In this document: piece after piece, positions 47,149 to 59,364 of the stretch
Numbering within the stretch: the stretch's first letter is position 1
Layout of the letters: every line of letters begins with the position of its first letter
Assembly: GCA_013177825.1 (NCBI GenBank)
Contig: JABLXX010000007.1
Coordinates: forward strand, 62,001 to 126,000
Source: Syntrophaceae bacterium
Lineage (GTDB): Bacteria; Desulfobacterota; Syntrophia; Syntrophales; PHBD01
Length of the DNA stretch: 64,000 nt
Reading direction: 5' to 3'
The notes under the pieces: model-generated
Told to the model about the DNA's origin: nothing
The model's input: only the letters and a program-made list of their open reading frames with translations
The model's database searches: none
Position numbers and translations under genes: made by a program

Positions 47149-47997
47149 TCAGGAAATCCTCATGCTGCGGAGCCTGGCAATCCGCTCTTCAATCGGCGGA
47201 TGGGTGCTGAACAGGCTCATGAGGGACCGCCCCGTCAGGGGGTTGACAATGAACATGTGGGCCGTTGACGGATTGGCGTCCATCGGAACGGCCTGGGATG
47301 CCCGGGAGAGCTTCTCGAGGGCTCCCGCAAGTCCGTACGGTTTACCGGACACCTTGGCTCCTCCTTCATCCGCCAGGTACTCCCGGGATCGGGAGATGGC
47401 CATCTGGATGATCGTCGCGGCGATGGGGGCCAGGATGGCCATCGCGATCAGGCCGAGAATACCCCCTCCCCCTTCGTCGTCGTCCCGGCTGGCGCCGCCG
47501 AATATGGCCGCCCACTGGGCCATGTTGGCCAGCATGACAATGGCCCCTGCCAGTGTCGCGGCGATGGAACCGACGAGAATGTCCTTGTTTTTGATATGGG
47601 TCAGCTCGTGGGCGATGACCCCTTCCAACTCATCCCTGTTCAGAATCCGGAGGATCCCTTCCGTCACGGCCACTACGGCATGCTGCTCGTTGCGGCCCGT
47701 GGCGAACGCGTTGGGCGTATCCCCCGGGATGATGTAGACCCGCGGCATGGGAAGGGACGCTTTCAGGGCCAGGTTCTTCACCATGTGATAGAGCTCCGGG
47801 GCCTGGGCTTCCGTAACCTCCTGAGCACGGTACATTCTCAGGACGATCTTGTCGGAGAACCAGTAGCTTCCGAAGTTCATGACCATCGCAAAGACGAAGG
47901 CCAGGACAACCCCGCCCCGCCCTCCGAAATATCCCCCGATGAGCATCAGGAGTCCCGTCAGCGCCCCCAGCAGGAGGGCTGTTCGGAACGAGTTCAT
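47149..47997 (-). CDS. htpX: HtpX membrane metalloprotease
   Basis: HtpX is an inner-membrane M48 zinc protease induced by envelope or heat stress. The 282-residue protein has N-terminal hydrophobic helices ([19 protein letters not shown]), the active site HELTH with THIKNKD near residue 140 and a second metal region [11 protein letters not shown]. The ATG at 47997 has AGGAGG upstream and overlaps the clpB stop (ATGA), so protease and chaperone are coupled. Confidence 0.95.
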
Positions 47998-50606
47998 ATG
48001 GACCTCCTTTTTTTCGTCTCCGGTTTCTGCATGGTGATCTCGCCGGCCTCGGACGCGTCCACCCGGATGGTGTCGCCCTCCCGGAACGTCCCCTCCAGAA
48101 TCTTCATGGCCAGCGGATCCAGCAACAGTTTCTGAAGCGCCCGCTTCAGCGGTCTCGCGCCGTATACGGGGCTGTATCCGGCCTCGGCTATAGTATCTTT
48201 CGCCCGGTCTGTCAATTCGAGGGTCAGCTTGCGCTCCTCCAGCCGCTTTACGATCAGCCCGATCTGAATCAGGATGATCCGGCGGATGTCCTCGAGAGCC
48301 AGCCCGCGGAACATGATAATGTCGTCCACCCGGTTGAGGAACTCGGGACGGAACGTAGCCCGGAGCGCATCCATGGCCTGAGCCCTCTTGTCCTCCTCGC
48401 TCATGTTCGGGTCCTGGATCCACTGGCTCCCCACGTTGGACGTCAGGATCACGACCGTATTCTTGAAATCGACCGTCCGGCCGTGACCGTCGGTCAAACG
48501 CCCGTCATCGAGAATCTGGAGCAGCACGTTGAATACGTCCGGGTGCGCCTTCTCGATCTCGTCGAACAGGAGAACGGCGTAGGGACGGCGCCGGACCGCC
48601 TCGGTCAGCTGCCCTCCTTCGTCATAGCCGACATATCCGGGCGGCGACCCGATCAGTCGGGCCACGGAATGTTTTTCCATATACTCCGACATGTCGATCC
48701 GGATCATGGCCTGCTCGCTGTCGAACATGAACTCTGCCAAGGCCCGGGCCAGCTCGGTCTTGCCAACGCCGGTAGGACCGAGGAAGATGAAGGAGCCGAT
48801 GGGCCGGTTCGGATCCTGAAGGCCCGAACGGGCACGCCGCAGGGCGCTGGAAACGGCGGCAACGCCTTCGTCCTGGCCGACGACCCGGAGACGCAACCGC
48901 TCTTCCATGTGGACCAGCTTGTGGACATCCGTCTCGAGCATCTTGGACACGGGAATCCCCGTCCAGTTGGCCACGACCTCGGCCACGTCCTCCGCGTCCA
49001 CCTCCTCCTTCAGCATCCGCTCGCCCTTCTGGGCCTCTTCCAGCCGTGTCTGCTCCTTCTGAATCTCGCCGTTGAGCTCGACCAGGCGGCCGTAGCGGAT
49101 CTCTGCCGCCTTCGCCAGGTCTCCCGACCGCTGGGCATCCGCCTCTTCCAGCTTGAGCTGTTCGATCTGGCTCTTGATCGTCTGGATCTGCTTGATCGCC
49201 TCCTTCTCGGCGCTCCAGTGGAGCTTCATCCGGTCCATGGACTCATTCAGGTCCGCCAGTTCCCGGTCGATCTTTTCCCTTCGCTCCACCGCCGTCGGAT
49301 CCGTCTCGTTCTTCAGGGACTGACGCTCAATCTCGAGCTGGATGACCCGGCGGTCGATGGCGTCTATCTCGGCGGGCATGCTGTCCAGCTCGATCCGCAG
49401 GCGTGAGGCCGCCTCGTCGACCAGGTCCACCGCCTTGTCGGGCAGAAACCGGTCGCTGATGTAGCGGTTCGACAGGGTCGCCGCGGCGATGAGGGCATCG
49501 TCCTTGATCCGGACCCCGTGATGGACTTCATAGCGCTCCTTCAGTCCCCGGAGGATGGCGATGGTGTCCTCCACGGTAGGCTCCTTCACCAGAATGGGCT
49601 GGAAGCGGCGCTCCAGGGCCGGGTCCTTTTCGATGTATTTCCGGTACTCGTTGAGGGTCGTGGCGCCGACGCAGCGGAGCTCGCCCCGGGCCAGGGCGGG
49701 CTTGAGCATGTTGGAAGCGTCCACGGACCCCTCCGCCGCCCCCGCGCCGACCACCGTATGGATCTCGTCGATAAAAAGGATGATCTCCCCTTCAGCCGCG
49801 ATGACTTCCTTCAGTACGGCCTTGAGGCGCTCCTCGAACTCGCCGCGGTACTTCGCGCCGGCGACGAGGGCTCCGATGTCGAGGCCGACAACGCGCTTGT
49901 CCTTCAGGTTTTCCGGAACGTCGCCGTTGACGATCCGCTGGGCCAAGCCTTCGACGATGGCCGTCTTGCCGACCCCGGGCTCTCCGATGAGGACCGGGTT
50001 GTTCTTCGTCCGGCGGGACAGGACCTGCATGATGCGACGGATCTCGTCGTCCCGGCCGATGACCGGATCGAAGGACCCCTTTCTGGCCAGCTCGTTGAAA
50101 TCTCGGGCGTAGCGCTTCAGGGCCTGGTATTTTTCCTCCGGATTGGGATCGGTGATGCGCTGGTTTCCCCGGATATTCACAAGGACTTTAAAGATGCTGT
50201 CCCGCGAGATCCCCTGATCCTTCAATATACCCGCCGTTGCCCCTTCCTTTTCCTCCGTCATGGCGACCAGGATGTGCTCGGCGCTCACGTATTCGTCGGA
50301 CAGGCGCGCCGCTTCGGACACCGCCTGATCCAGAACCCGGCCCAGCCGGGGGGAAAGGTACGTCTGTCCTCTTCCCGCCCCCTCCACTCTTGGGATCTTC
50401 TGCAGAGCCCGGTCGAGATCCTTCTCCAGTTTCCCGGCATCGGCGCCGAGCTTGCCCAGGATCTCCCCGACGACTCCCTCCGTCTGCCGGAGCAAAGTCA
50501 GGAGGAGATGCTCCACTTCCACGGCCTGGTGGCCGCTCTTCTGGGCCAGGGTCTGCGCGTCCTGCAGGGCCTCCTGGGCTTTCAGGGTGAATTTGTCGAA
50601 ACGCAT
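47994..50606 (-). CDS. clpB: ATP-dependent disaggregase ClpB
   Basis: ClpB is an AAA+ hexameric disaggregase working with the DnaK system. The full-length 870 residues have an N-terminal Clp repeat domain, AAA domain 1 with Walker [10 protein letters not shown], a coiled-coil middle domain (about 410-530) and AAA domain 2 with Walker [10 protein letters not shown]. It is coupled to htpX, a proteostasis pair. rpoH is about 1.2 kb away and transcribed in the other direction; no clear sigma-32 promoter was found upstream of clpB. Confidence 0.96.
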
Positions 50607-50749: not shown

Positions 50750-51619
50750 CTATTCTGTGGGCTTTTCAATGCTAACGAGGATCTTGCCTCTTTTGAAAAT
50801 CGTCACGTTGCCCGATGATTCGGACAGAACGATGGCAATCGCATCGGTAATGCTCGTGATGCCGGCCGCCGCGATATGGCGACTTCCGAGTCCATGAGGA
50901 AAATCTTTGCCTTCCAGAGCCGCGCTCAGGTGTCTCCCCGCCGTGACGAGAACACCGTTGTCCTGGATCACAAACGCCCCGTCGATGGCCGAAAATTCCT
51001 TGATCGTCTCTTTGAGGTCCGGATTCAGGATATTCCTCTGTTCCTCGGCATAGCCCATGAAGGGGTTGATGATCATCTGCCGGGAAAGCTGGAGCACCCG
51101 CTCGTGATCCCCCAGGATAAAGATGGTTCCCACTTTCCGGCCTTCCCTTCCCTGGGCGGCCAGTTCCAGAGCCAGATTCAGAACGGTGCCGAAGACTTCC
51201 GGATAAACCGTTTCGGTTAGTCCCGTCATGTTTTCGGAGGTGAGGATCTCGAATTCCTTCCCCACGTCGATGACGAACAGGCTGTCGGCATACCCGAAGC
51301 GGGATACCCCGCTGAGGCACACAACCTTGTCCCCCTTCTGGAAAATGCCCATGGCGATCCCTTTGGTGATGGCGATCTTGATCTGGCCGAGGCGGGTCAG
51401 CTTGACGTCGGGCACGTTGATCAGGATGCTCCTGTTCCGGATGTGCTCGGGGATCTCTTCATCCCCCCGGGTAACGACGATCAGGTCGTAACAGCACTCT
51501 CCTTTTTCGGAAATAGGCATGTGGTCCACCAGGTCGGAATACAGAAGCATCGCTTTCGCTTCCGCCTCTTTGGCTATCTTGCAGGCTGCTTCGAGAATAA
51601 TCTGGCTGATTGAATTCAT
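50750..51619 (-). CDS. DacZ-like diadenylate cyclase
   Basis: This is a probable c-di-AMP synthase. The 289-residue protein has an N-terminal alpha/beta domain of the pyruvate-kinase C-terminal-like type and a C-terminal DAC/DisA_N catalytic domain. The metal-binding DGA motif is in IDGAFVIQDNGVLV (213-215). The usual RHR is replaced by SRHIAA (246-251), a pattern seen in the archaeal-type DacZ enzymes (GLGSRHIAAAGITSITDAI). The start is the ATG at 51619, because the preceding AAAGGTGAT is a better RBS than anything before the ATG at 51634. It is divergent from rpoH. Confidence 0.82.
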   Translation of the reverse strand: MNSISQIILEAACKIAKEAEAKAMLLYSDLVDHMPISEKGECCYDLIVVTRGDEEIPEHIRNRSILINVPDVKLTRLGQIKIAITKGIAMGIFQKGDKVVCLSGVSRFGYADSLFVIDVGKEFEILTSENMTGLTETVYPEVFGTVLNLALELAAQGREGRKVGTIFILGDHERVLQLSRQMIINPFMGYAEEQRNILNPDLKETIKEFSAIDGAFVIQDNGVLVTAGRHLSAALEGKDFPHGLGSRHIAAAGITSITDAIAIVLSESSGNVTIFKRGKILVSIEKPTE

Positions 51620-51648
51620 GGCATCACCTTTCATCCAAAATCGGCGTT

Positions 51649-51677
51649 AAATTAAGCACAAAGCCTCTTCCTGTCAA
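51649..51677 (-). promoter_or_regulatory. promoter of the diadenylate cyclase gene
   Basis: On the minus strand TTGACA (plus 51672-51677), a 17-nt spacer and TAATTT (plus 51649-51654), 30 bp before the start. Confidence 0.65.
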
Positions 51678-51700
51678 GGACGCGACCGGATACAAAACGC

Positions 51701-51730
51701 TTGACAGGGGTCCCATCTACAGGATATTTT
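51701..51730 (+). promoter_or_regulatory. promoter of rpoH
   Basis: TTGACA (51701-51706), an 18-nt spacer and TATTTT (51725-51730), 32 bp before the TTG start. It is back-to-back with the diadenylate cyclase promoter; the two -35 elements are only 23 bp apart. Confidence 0.65.
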
Positions 51731-51761: not shown

Positions 51762-52622
51762 TTGGAACTTCCCACCCTGACGGGAACCCTTGATCGATAC
51801 ATCTCGGAGATCAATCAGTTTGAGCTCCTGACTCCGGAAGAGGAATTCCGGCTGGCCGTCCGTTTCCGAAAATACAACGACATGGAGGCGGCCCAGCATC
51901 TGGTCGTGTCCAATCTTCGGTTCGTTGTCAAAATCGCTCATGAATACAGGAATTACGGCATGAAACTGGCCGACCTCATCCAGGAGGGAAACATCGGCCT
52001 GATGCATGCCGTCAAGAAATTCGATCCGTATCGGGGATACCGCCTCATCTCTTATGCCGTCTGGTGGATCCGCGCCTACATCCAGAATTACATCATCAAG
52101 ACCTGGAGCGTCGTCAAAATCGGAACGACTCAGGCCCAGCGCAAACTGTTCTTCAAACTTGGCCAGGCAAAGAAGAAGCTCGAAGCTCTCTCCCAGAAAA
52201 ACCCGGAGTTTGCGGAAATCGCCGAATCCCTTGGGGTGAAGGAGATCGACATCGAGCAGATGGACCTGCGGCTGAGTCACCGCGACCTCTCCCTGGACGC
52301 GACGATCAGCGACGACGGGGAGGTGTCGCACCTGGATTACCTGACCTATGACGGGGATGACCAGGAGATTTCACTGATCAAGAAAGAGGAAATGGAACTG
52401 GCGCGGAAGAACATCGCCGGAGCGATGGCCGCGCTCAACGAAAAGGAAAGCTACATCATCCGCCATCGGGTCATGGCGGACAATCCGGAGACCCTTCAGG
52501 AAATCGGAAACCGATACCACATCACCCGGGAGAGAGCACGCCAGATCGAGAAGCAGGCCCTGAAGAAGCTGGCAACAGCACTTCCCTACCTCGGAACCGA
52601 TCCCCCTCTTCTGGGCAACTAG
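51762..52622 (+). CDS. rpoH: heat-shock sigma factor RpoH
   Basis: RpoH is sigma-32, directing transcription of heat-shock genes. The 286-residue protein has the region 2 helices (VVSNLRFVVKIAHEYRNYGM, DLIQEGNIGLMHAVKKFDP), the RpoH-type box QAQRKLFFKLGQAK and region 4 with YHITRERARQIEKQALKKL. The start is a TTG at 51762 preceded by AGGAGG at 5 bases. No ATG in frame exists before codon 40, which would remove region 1.2, so the TTG is well supported. Confidence 0.93.
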   Translation: MELPTLTGTLDRYISEINQFELLTPEEEFRLAVRFRKYNDMEAAQHLVVSNLRFVVKIAHEYRNYGMKLADLIQEGNIGLMHAVKKFDPYRGYRLISYAVWWIRAYIQNYIIKTWSVVKIGTTQAQRKLFFKLGQAKKKLEALSQKNPEFAEIAESLGVKEIDIEQMDLRLSHRDLSLDATISDDGEVSHLDYLTYDGDDQEISLIKKEEMELARKNIAGAMAALNEKESYIIRHRVMADNPETLQEIGNRYHITRERARQIEKQALKKLATALPYLGTDPPLLGN

Positions 52623-56660: not shown

Positions 56661-57563
56661 TCAGTTCTGCACCCTCTTGACGAGCATTCTGCGAAGGTGT
56701 TTCTCATACTCGTCCCGGCGGTGAGTCACCAGATAGTCCAGATAGTTCAAGTTCCTTTCTATGCTTTTCATGTAAAGATCTTCATCGATATTCCATCGTT
56801 TCCGGAAATGGTAGCGACTGTAAAGATACGCGTCCCCCAGTTCCTCCCGGAACCGCTCCCGGGTCATCTGAAAGAATCCCCGAGTCTTCTCCAGCAGGTC
56901 CAGCTGGCTCGAATAGGCCGTGATTCCGGCTTCAATAAACTCGGCATAAAGATCCAGCAGTTTTTCCAGGTAATGGCGATCGGCCATCTGTCCCAAAAGA
57001 TCCGCCGTGCCCAGCATGTGCCCCAGGAGTTTGATGCTATCGTTGCGGAACTGAATTTCTCCGATCTTGGTGTTGAGGCCGGTACACTGCAGGATATCGC
57101 TGAAGAAGGGCAGTTCCTCCCGGAATATGGGGTTGTTCCGGTAGTATTGCACCATGAACTCGATGCTCCGGTTGATGTGAACAAGCGTGTATTTTGCCCC
57201 GGTTCCCTCCGTATCGCCACTTCTCTGGATATAGCCGGTATCATGCATCAGCCCGCAGACGAGACCGATGTTGAATTCCTTCTCCGTGAAGGAATGACCT
57301 GCTTCAATGGCCCCGTGCATCAGACGGGTGACGGCCAGGGTGACCGCCATGGTATGACTCAGGTCATGGTAATCTACGTTCGAGTGGCGATAGCCTGGAT
57401 ATTCCCCGCTGAAAAGCCGGACGATATCTCCATAAGCCCGATCGAGCAGCCCATGGTCAAATTGGGGAAAGGAAAGAGAGGCAATGAGCCGGATCTCTCC
57501 GATGACGGCATCGTGATCCTCAATGTCCAACAGGTTGGCCAACTGGTTTGAGCGATCCTTCAT
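56661..57563 (-). CDS. HD-domain phosphohydrolase-like protein
   Basis: This 300-residue cytoplasmic protein has an HD metal-binding domain. The His/Asp pattern of the HD superfamily is in YHDLSHTMAV (near residue 65), LMHDTGY (near 108) and later DLLGQMAD. It is related to eukaryotic-type 3',5'-cyclic nucleotide phosphodiesterase folds, but I cannot assign the substrate. The ATG at 57563 has AAGGA 6 bases upstream; an ATG two codons earlier abuts the RBS. It lies downstream of the SpoIIE-type phosphatase gene in the same direction. Confidence 0.75.
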   Translation of the reverse strand: MKDRSNQLANLLDIEDHDAVIGEIRLIASLSFPQFDHGLLDRAYGDIVRLFSGEYPGYRHSNVDYHDLSHTMAVTLAVTRLMHGAIEAGHSFTEKEFNIGLVCGLMHDTGYIQRSGDTEGTGAKYTLVHINRSIEFMVQYYRNNPIFREELPFFSDILQCTGLNTKIGEIQFRNDSIKLLGHMLGTADLLGQMADRHYLEKLLDLYAEFIEAGITAYSSQLDLLEKTRGFFQMTRERFREELGDAYLYSRYHFRKRWNIDEDLYMKSIERNLNYLDYLVTHRRDEYEKHLRRMLVKRVQN

Positions 57564-57696
57564 CGGCATTCCTTATTCTCAAAGACAATTGCCCTGAAAA
57601 TATGCCCATTTTTTACTCTAATAACCGTTGAAAAACAAGAGGAAACGTTTCAGGGGCGCCGACTGGGCGCGCAAAGGTGTGGAGATCGTCGTCTAT

Positions 57697-59364
57697 TTAT
57701 ACGACTTTAAGAACGACAAGGGCGATATCATCGAATTGGGGCCTCCCACCGGCGAACGCAATGACGGCGTCCTGGATTTTCATGATGATCTCCCCGGCGG
57801 ACAAATCCCGGTTTTCCCGAACGACCCGGACCAGCCGGTCGAGGCCGAAGGGCTGGTCGTTTTCGTTGACCGCTTCGGTAACGCCATCGGTGTACAGAAC
57901 CACCAGATCTCCATCCGACAGCGGCAGTCCAATTTCCTGCACATGGATGTCCCTTTTCACCCCCAGGGCAATGCCCCGGGCCTTCAGCCAGCCCGGTTCC
58001 TCCGACCCACTCCGCAGCAGGAGCGGAGGGTTGTGGCCGGCGTTCACATAACGGAGCTTCGGACCCGGCTCGACAACCGTATAAAACAGAGTGACAAACA
58101 TACCGGACGTGGAATCGCGGCAGATCAGTTCGTTGGCCTGCCGGATGGCGTGTGCCAGATCAAGCGTTCCCGTGGCGCTGGCCCGGACGACCGTCCTGGA
58201 CAGCCCCATGAACATGGCCGCCGGCATTCCCTTGCCGGATACGTCGGCGATGACGACCCCCCACAAATCATCCAGAACGGGGATGAAGTCGTAAAAATCA
58301 CCCCCGACTTCCCTCGCCGGAATATTGTTGGCTGCCAGATCAATATTCGGAATACGGGGCGCCCGCTCCGGAATCAGCCGTTGCTGGATTCCCCGGGCGA
58401 TTTCCAGTTCCTTGAGAAGGCCTTCCCGGTCAGCCGTGGTCTGCTTCAGCTCCGACATATGCTCCCGCAGGTCCATGGTCATCCGGTTGAATGCCGCGGC
58501 CAGTTCCTCCATCTCATCCCCTGTCTGCACCTCCACCCGATGGTCAATCTCTCCGCGCCCGATGGCTTTCACGCCACGGATCAGGGAAAGGACGGGCCGG
58601 GTAATCGTGCGGGAGATGAAAACGGCGACGCCGAGGACCACAAGCATCAGGAAAAGAAGGAACGCAAAGAAGTTCCGATAGATATCGTCCAGGGTCTCAT
58701 TGACATGCTCCTTGATCTGATGGGTCGTCGCGTCGATCCGCTTCTTTGTTTCCTTTACCGGGATGGAGAATTCGTCGATATACGTTGTCGCAGCGACCAT
58801 GAACATGGAATCCCGAACGGGCACGATGGACATGAATTTACGCCGGATCCTGCCGTCCAGGTCGGGCCAGTCGTAGTAGCCGCTGTTGGAGGACCCGTCG
58901 AAGGTCTTCTCGAAGATTTTCCAGAAATCGGGAAGTTTGTCCCGCCACTGACGAAGATCGAAGTCAACAACCTCCGGATTGGGGTGAAATCTCATCATCC
59001 CCGTTTCGCGGTCGAAGACCAGAGTATAACCGGTTTTCCCAACGGACTGGACGGCGATTTTCTGAAAATCCGGCCTTTTTCTGAGTTCATCCAGCCGGAT
59101 GCCGGGATGTGCGTCCAGATAGATGCGGCACTGAAGGGCTACATCCGCCGCCTTCTGTGTGATAATGCCTTCTCCAAGTTCTTCCAGGGCCTTGGCGCTG
59201 TCACTGGCGGCCCGGTCCCCCAGGGCTGCACTGCTATCCAGGGCGTAGTTCCCGATCTGCTGGATATCCCCGAATGCGAAATAGCCGAAGATCATCAGAG
59301 AGATCACCGGCAAACCCAGAAAGGCGAGGAGAAGCTTGGTGCGGATGGGTATTTTTAATTTCAC
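57697..59364 (-). CDS. membrane PP2C (SpoIIE-type) phosphatase with HAMP domain
   Basis: This is the signal-input phosphatase of a partner-switching pathway. Of 555 residues, a periplasmic sensing loop (about 30-230, containing the PDFQKIAVQSVGKTGYTLVF Cache-like stretch) lies between two membrane helices. A HAMP (about 255-305) and a C-terminal SpoIIE/PP2C domain (about 330-555) follow. The metal-binding motifs are GGDFYDF, ADVSGKGMPAAMFM and FDDIALVVL. The start is GTG at 59364. It would dephosphorylate the STAS protein encoded upstream (60918-61250). Confidence 0.88.
   Translation of the reverse strand: MKLKIPIRTKLLLAFLGLPVISLMIFGYFAFGDIQQIGNYALDSSAALGDRAASDSAKALEELGEGIITQKAADVALQCRIYLDAHPGIRLDELRKRPDFQKIAVQSVGKTGYTLVFDRETGMMRFHPNPEVVDFDLRQWRDKLPDFWKIFEKTFDGSSNSGYYDWPDLDGRIRRKFMSIVPVRDSMFMVAATTYIDEFSIPVKETKKRIDATTHQIKEHVNETLDDIYRNFFAFLLFLMLVVLGVAVFISRTITRPVLSLIRGVKAIGRGEIDHRVEVQTGDEMEELAAAFNRMTMDLREHMSELKQTTADREGLLKELEIARGIQQRLIPERAPRIPNIDLAANNIPAREVGGDFYDFIPVLDDLWGVVIADVSGKGMPAAMFMGLSRTVVRASATGTLDLAHAIRQANELICRDSTSGMFVTLFYTVVEPGPKLRYVNAGHNPPLLLRSGSEEPGWLKARGIALGVKRDIHVQEIGLPLSDGDLVVLYTDGVTEAVNENDQPFGLDRLVRVVRENRDLSAGEIIMKIQDAVIAFAGGRPQFDDIALVVLKVV

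Follow-up and report, generated by a model that had tools for sequence, protein, structure and literature searches.

A DacZ-class diadenylate cyclase gene placed with clpB behind a predicted heat-shock promoter in Syntrophales

The window, that is, the whole analysed stretch of 64,000 nucleotides of a Syntrophaceae bacterium, contains the gene dacZ at 50750–51619 on the (-) strand, and the explanation that we consider likely is that its soluble DacZ product makes c-di-AMP and that dacZ lies in a heat-shock operon with clpB, both genes being co-induced, most probably by RpoH. The family of the protein, its predicted fold, the gene order, a common promoter motif and a c-di-AMP riboswitch were obtained by computation; from these we infer enzyme activity, co-transcription and RpoH dependence.

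The open reading frame of dacZ is present where the initial annotation had put it, and alignment with relatives prefers the ATG at 51619 as its start, an in-frame ATG being found also at 51634. The product of 289 aa carries a C-terminal Pfam DAC domain (76.6 bits, cut-off 27) and an N-terminal domain of the PK_C superfamily, recognised as Pfam DacZ_P (49.4 bits, cut-off 27.4), while Pfam PK_C itself stays below its cut-off on this protein (18.3 vs 28). Among the NCBIfam models, the haloarchaeal DacZ equivalog (NF041371) gives by far the highest score, 142 bits, although this lies below its cut-off of 430; CdaM (43), CdaA (38), CdaS (33) and DisA (16) follow. The protein is far from the CdaA family (TIGR00159, 37.8 vs 188.8 bits; no CdaA_N match) and from the DisA family (NF010009, 15.9 vs 201 bits), and the window's own genome has no DisA match.

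An AlphaFold2 model was built from the window protein and 51 relatives, with a mean pLDDT of 84.6 and a pTM of 0.85. In the predicted fold, residues 1–125 (51245–51619, (-) strand) align with the pyruvate kinase C-terminal domain in 5ws9 (Z 15.2 over 119 residues at an rmsd of 2.3), which agrees with the DacZ_P match and bears out the pyruvate-kinase-like N-terminal domain proposed in the initial annotation; this part is a putative ligand sensor. The DAC catalytic domain, at about residues 138–287 (50759–51208, (-) strand), was placed by alignment of the predicted fold to CdaA and DisA: residues 138–285 match CdaA 8c4n with Z 15.3 (129 residues, rmsd 2.5), and the domain matches DisA 9y9y with Z 14.9. 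The best 50 Foldseek matches are all DAC proteins, one of which carries only the title of a hypothetical B. cereus protein.

As for the active site, the DGA motif is found at D213–A215 (50975–50983, (-) strand), and the usual RHR is indeed absent, as had been noticed from the letters: the second motif reads G-S-R-H-I, so that R-H-I at residues 247–249 (50873–50881, (-) strand) has Ile as the third residue. The DGA motif is conserved in 55 of the 58 members from the same order (DGS in the other three) and in 46/46 members outside it, and R247, H248 and the third-position Ile occur in all 58 order members. In the 46 DacZ_P members outside the order, the listed forms show R, M, V, L, A or H as the third residue; the motif is RHH in both haloarchaeal DacZ and RHT in the CdaA-type proteins of the window's order. 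Since this position varies across DacZ as a whole and in the order's CdaA-type proteins, Ile there is no argument against activity, and loss of the third RHR residue was rejected as a mark of inactivity or of archaeal origin. That is to say, the loss which had been taken as a sign of archaeal-type DacZ is real, but it is not diagnostic. The predicted catalytic residues D213, G214, R247 and H248 are kept. A dead or altered DAC domain, which would regulate RpoH or ClpB by binding or make another nucleotide, could be read from the change of RHR to RHI throughout the order members; it is very improbable in view of the conservation of these four residues, the freedom of the third position and the two genomes (G000 and G001) in which DacZ is the only DAC found and a c-di-AMP riboswitch is present.

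The class of the protein was further examined with a tree of 52 DAC domains (136 columns, LG+I+G4), in which DisA, CdaS and CdaM are not represented; DisA was left out since it is over its cut-off in 0/198 genomes of the phylum. The CdaA-type set of 17 comprises 16 sequences from Desulfobacterota-like genomes and one annotated Anoxybacillus CdaA, and archaeal DacZ is represented by two annotated Haladaptatus sequences from haloarchaeal plasmids. The split between 35 DacZ-type domains, including the two haloarchaeal ones and the window protein's group, and the 17 CdaA-type domains received a UFBoot of 100, so that the window protein stands in a clade with archaeal DacZ. A DAC phylogeny had been proposed as a test that could refute the DacZ assignment; it sets the protein apart from CdaA, while on the DisA side the separation is by profile only (16 bits, vs 142 for the DacZ model). 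In addition, an insertion around NPF is common to the aligned DacZ sequences and lacking in CdaA. Pfam, predicted fold and tree all support the earlier identification, and by its sequence the window protein is a DacZ-class diadenylate cyclase, an established kind.

According to PMC6741144, nearly all Euryarchaeota and some bacteria possess DacZ/CdaZ homologues whose N-terminus is PK_C-like, and the DacZ of H. volcanii shows activity with manganese. The window protein shares with the euryarchaeal proteins (H. volcanii DacZ, M. jannaschii CdaZ) the PK_C-like N-terminus, the DAC domain and the DGA motif, and with the two Haladaptatus DacZ the NPF insertion and the DAC clade; it differs in its N-terminal family, which is DacZ_P rather than DACZ_N, and its gene adjoins rpoH and clpB instead of mscS, the neighbour given for H. 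volcanii in the same text. The bacterial DacZ_P proteins (Pfam PF21755) have the same two domains, whereas CdaA, including the CdaA-YbbR fusion of the same order, has the DAC domain in common with DacZ and differs in its membrane CdaA_N domain and separate DAC clade. Bacterial DacZ_P proteins are reportedly described by Galperin (2023).

DacZ had been regarded as unusual in bacteria, whose synthases are usually DisA, CdaA or CdaS; here it is not rare. Sorting 100 order genomes (the window's own included) by score class gave DacZ-type proteins in 58, high-scoring CdaA-type proteins in 75, both in 41 and DacZ only in 17, where the CdaA-type class means a bit score of 112 or more, with some members checked by sequence or domain, and three fragmentary DAC matches (G082, G084, G087) were kept out of the DacZ count. 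In a draw of genomes from the phylum, DacZ_P matched in 60/395, 55 of them over the cut-off, and it matched in 52/52 members of set A2. Going by record titles, DacZ_P proteins occur in Thermodesulfobacteriota, Nitrospinota, Tectomicrobia, Planctomycetota and other taxa, and the 80 matches listed in a contig scan for DacZ are all titled bacterial, with no archaeal record among them. Bacterial DacZ is already known, being included in the available text of PMC6741144, and Pfam already names DacZ_P.

Several other DAC proteins were observed in these genomes. Three short DACs of 213–224 aa (L089–L091, in G023, G038 and G078) group with DacZ and have no recognised N-terminal domain, Pfam having been run on L090 only; two of them lie near the haloarchaeal DacZ in the tree. 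An 864-aa open frame with a DacZ-like region in G106 (L138:2723-5314 (+)) may represent a fusion or a read-through from upstream. The second DAC found in the order (L003:1144-2592 (+)) combines CdaA_N, DAC and YbbR (CdaR-like) domains in one chain of about 490 aa and has GLRHTAA at the second motif, and the same CdaA_N-DAC-YbbR form is seen by sequence in L005, L013, L020 and L031, with Pfam applied to L003 only.

The remaining parts of c-di-AMP signalling were searched for in the genome. The DAC model has one match only in the window's genome, namely dacZ. A c-di-AMP riboswitch (RF00379, 95.1 bits, gathering 38) lies at G000:C9:48843-48983 (L260, L273) in this Gram-negative genome and ends 55 bases ahead of the gene of a 647-aa K_trans (Kup) protein, and TrkA_C (RCK_C) has nine matches, so that both kinds of receptor which the initial annotation suggested looking for are present. 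The genome also encodes a PgpH-like protein (7TMR-HDED, 7TM and HD domains) and a DHH-DHHA1 protein similar in size to NrnA. The DAC protein, the riboswitch and the PgpH-like protein put a synthase, a receptor and a likely degradation enzyme together in one genome. The dacZ product most likely makes the c-di-AMP of this bacterium. Across the order, the riboswitch was found in 7/31 genomes, two of which have a CdaA-type DAC only (G004, G019) and one of which has no DAC found (G026). Within the window, a 302-aa protein at 56661–57569 (-) has a weak, below-cut-off HD-domain match and adjoins a PP2C-phosphatase-like protein at 57697–59364, named from its sequence only.

The divergent neighbour rpoH of dacZ, as already claimed, is real: it lies at 51762–52622 (+) with a TTG start behind AGGAGG and scores 333 bits with TIGR02392 (cut-off 323). 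Downstream of dacZ on the same strand, a point absent from the initial annotation, is the disaggregase gene clpB at 47994–50606 (-) (TIGR03346, 1355 bits, cut-off 1232), separated by a gap of 143 bases; the gap is 5–20 bp in 35 of the 54 order loci that have one. Of the 57 order loci counted, from which the short DAC loci L089–L091 were left out, 52 have a divergent rpoH upstream (no more than 534 bp away in 49, and at 646–1508 bp in three), and 54 have clpB downstream on the same strand. For the loci lacking rpoH, about 1.1 kb or less remains to the contig end in L038, L042 and L065, and 3.5 kb of sequence without rpoH is present in L039 and L055; where clpB is lacking, htpX occupies its position in L044 and L065, and L063 lies at the end of a contig. 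Outside the order, where 46 of 47 loci were used (L149 has no DacZ match), the neighbours are lineage-specific and clpB is near dacZ in 0/46, so that the dacZ-rpoH-clpB arrangement was rejected as a context shared by all DacZ. In one family outside the order (L124, L142, L161), rpoH is divergent at 1.2–1.4 kb from dacZ, with a gene of 310–324 aa between them.

A ClpB search of 30 DacZ-less order genomes gave 30 loci, 16 of which have rpoH divergent from clpB with 123–494 bp between; the remaining loci are truncated, belong to ClpA-like paralogues or show no rpoH within reach. DacZ-less relatives thus keep rpoH and clpB as divergent neighbours, and dacZ is either present or absent between clpB and its promoter region.

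The paired TTGACA elements reported at first are real, at 51672–51677 (-) and 51701–51706 (+) with 23 bases between (51678–51700). On the dacZ strand, TTGACA occurs in 55/58 upstream regions against about 5 expected, far above chance, and on the rpoH strand in 15/58. The dacZ element is the -35 part of a heat-shock-type promoter motif of dacZ(-clpB), CTTGACA-N13-TGCTTAATTTA at 51648–51678 (-), which is common to groESL, hsp20 and clpB, while the rpoH element belongs to a sigma70-like match at 51701–51730 (+) with 16–18 nt after TTGACA, a weak -10 and 10/12 consensus matches. With expected numbers taken, as for TTGACA, from mononucleotide shuffles, the strict motif TTGACA-N13-15-TGNT[AT]NNNT stands upstream of dacZ in 29/58 regions (0.02 expected) and the loose form in 43/58 (1.1 expected), 15 regions being without even the loose motif. 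The loose form with its TG..T element is in 0/58 regions on the rpoH strand, and the motif is upstream of dacZ in 0/46 loci outside the order. Ahead of clpB in the 16 DacZ-less loci, the strict form was found in 9 and the loose form in 10.

In 60 order genomes, CTTGACA-N12-14-TGNTTANNTTA gave 71 matches genome-wide, vs 1 for the reversed pattern: groES/EL 27, dacZ 16, hsp20 12, clpB 7, dnaJ 1 and other genes 8. All 71 were assigned, 58 via the downstream reading frame and 13 via known dacZ or clpB coordinates; Pfam was scanned on 57 of the 58 frames, and the groEL frame of L368, which contains a run of X, was assigned without it. Because dacZ and clpB regions supplied the pattern, the independent measure is the 40 of 48 matches not at dacZ or clpB that stand before heat-shock genes (groES/EL, hsp20, dnaJ). 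A shorter form gave 5 matches in the window's own genome (control 1), at dacZ, groES, hsp20, an ORF of 133 aa and one resembling ATP synthase b, as read from their sequences. The motif is thus common to dacZ and to known heat-shock genes of the same genomes, as expected of an RpoH regulon, and it marks a predicted heat-shock promoter class of the order with dacZ as a member.

As dacZ lies between clpB and the heat-shock promoter of clpB, the two genes would be transcribed together, although the 143-base gap in the window means that clpB could have a promoter of its own; a generic sigma70 scan listed no promoter-like site there. The absence of the dacZ-clpB link outside the order means that the arrangement may be inherited gene order. 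On that explanation an ordinary DacZ supplies steady c-di-AMP for K+ or osmotic control, its adjacency to rpoH and clpB being frozen and without a heat-shock link, and it is supported by dnaB, rplI, DUF2232, htpX and ispE, which are likewise near in many order members, and by the other neighbours of DacZ outside the order. We hold it to be unlikely, as the dacZ motif is the one ahead of groESL and hsp20 and as clpB is preceded by it where dacZ is absent.

The E. coli-type sigma32 consensus CTTGAAA...CCCCAT is hardly enriched (a score of at least 10 in 31/58 regions vs 106/290 mononucleotide shuffles) and no exact CIRCE was found in the dacZ upstream regions, so both were rejected as the dacZ promoter; the generic sigma70 scan called the rpoH site and not the dacZ site. 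The order motif resembles the sigma32 (RpoH) regulon in its targets groESL, hsp20, clpB and dnaJ and in a -35 beginning with CTTGA, and differs in its -10, TGNTTANNTTA, unlike CCCCAT. In the available text of PMC545781, the sigma32-like promoters of delta-proteobacteria are close to those of E. coli, and the nearest known site is CTTGAcA-N13-aCttAT ahead of Desulfotalea grpE-dnaK. With the target list and its gene next door, RpoH is the natural candidate; since the motif is not the E. coli consensus, the sigma factor is assigned by inference, and RpoH probably drives the dacZ promoter. It could be argued instead that housekeeping sigma70 reads the motif as a promoter with a TG-extended -10, which serves strongly expressed genes, chaperones included, induction coming from HrcA/CIRCE at groESL only. 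Both TTGACA and TGN resemble sigma70 elements, the dacZ regions match the E. coli sigma32 consensus weakly, and CIRCE at groESL in delta-proteobacteria is given in the available text of PMC545781; against this, a general promoter should precede ribosomal and metabolic genes, while 63 of the 71 matches are at dacZ or chaperone genes, and the dacZ regions have no exact CIRCE. We regard this as rather unlikely.

In the preferred explanation, induction by RpoH, dacZ would be transcribed with clpB upon protein-folding stress. Soluble DacZ would form c-di-AMP from two ATP, with the pyruvate-kinase-C-like N-terminal domain probably acting as a metabolite sensor; c-di-AMP would act at least on the riboswitch ahead of the K+ transporter gene kup and probably on RCK_C-type proteins too, and the PgpH-like phosphodiesterase would remove it. 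Heat would then raise c-di-AMP and lower K+ uptake. The further proposal that dacZ of Syntrophales became a heat-shock gene, with c-di-AMP as a heat-shock output that throttles K+ uptake through riboswitch and kup while ClpB clears aggregates, seems to us somewhat better than an even chance.

Little is understood of what turns on c-di-AMP synthesis, and the role of c-di-AMP in Gram-negative bacteria has received little study. In searches of open-licence papers, none was found that connects c-di-AMP synthesis with RpoH or ClpB or describes a heat-shock-controlled diadenylate cyclase. DacZ_P proteins outside the order show neither the motif nor clpB. What is new is the regulatory setting: across one order, the gene of a c-di-AMP synthase is conserved within a predicted heat-shock operon. 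This is a strong computational prediction. In such an operon, protein-folding stress would be an input open to direct testing and the riboswitch-controlled kup a visible output, and relatives that carry dacZ in the operon form a natural contrast with those that lack it. A heat-shock promoter for dacZ would tie a potassium-control signal to heat stress in an ecologically important group of syntrophic bacteria.
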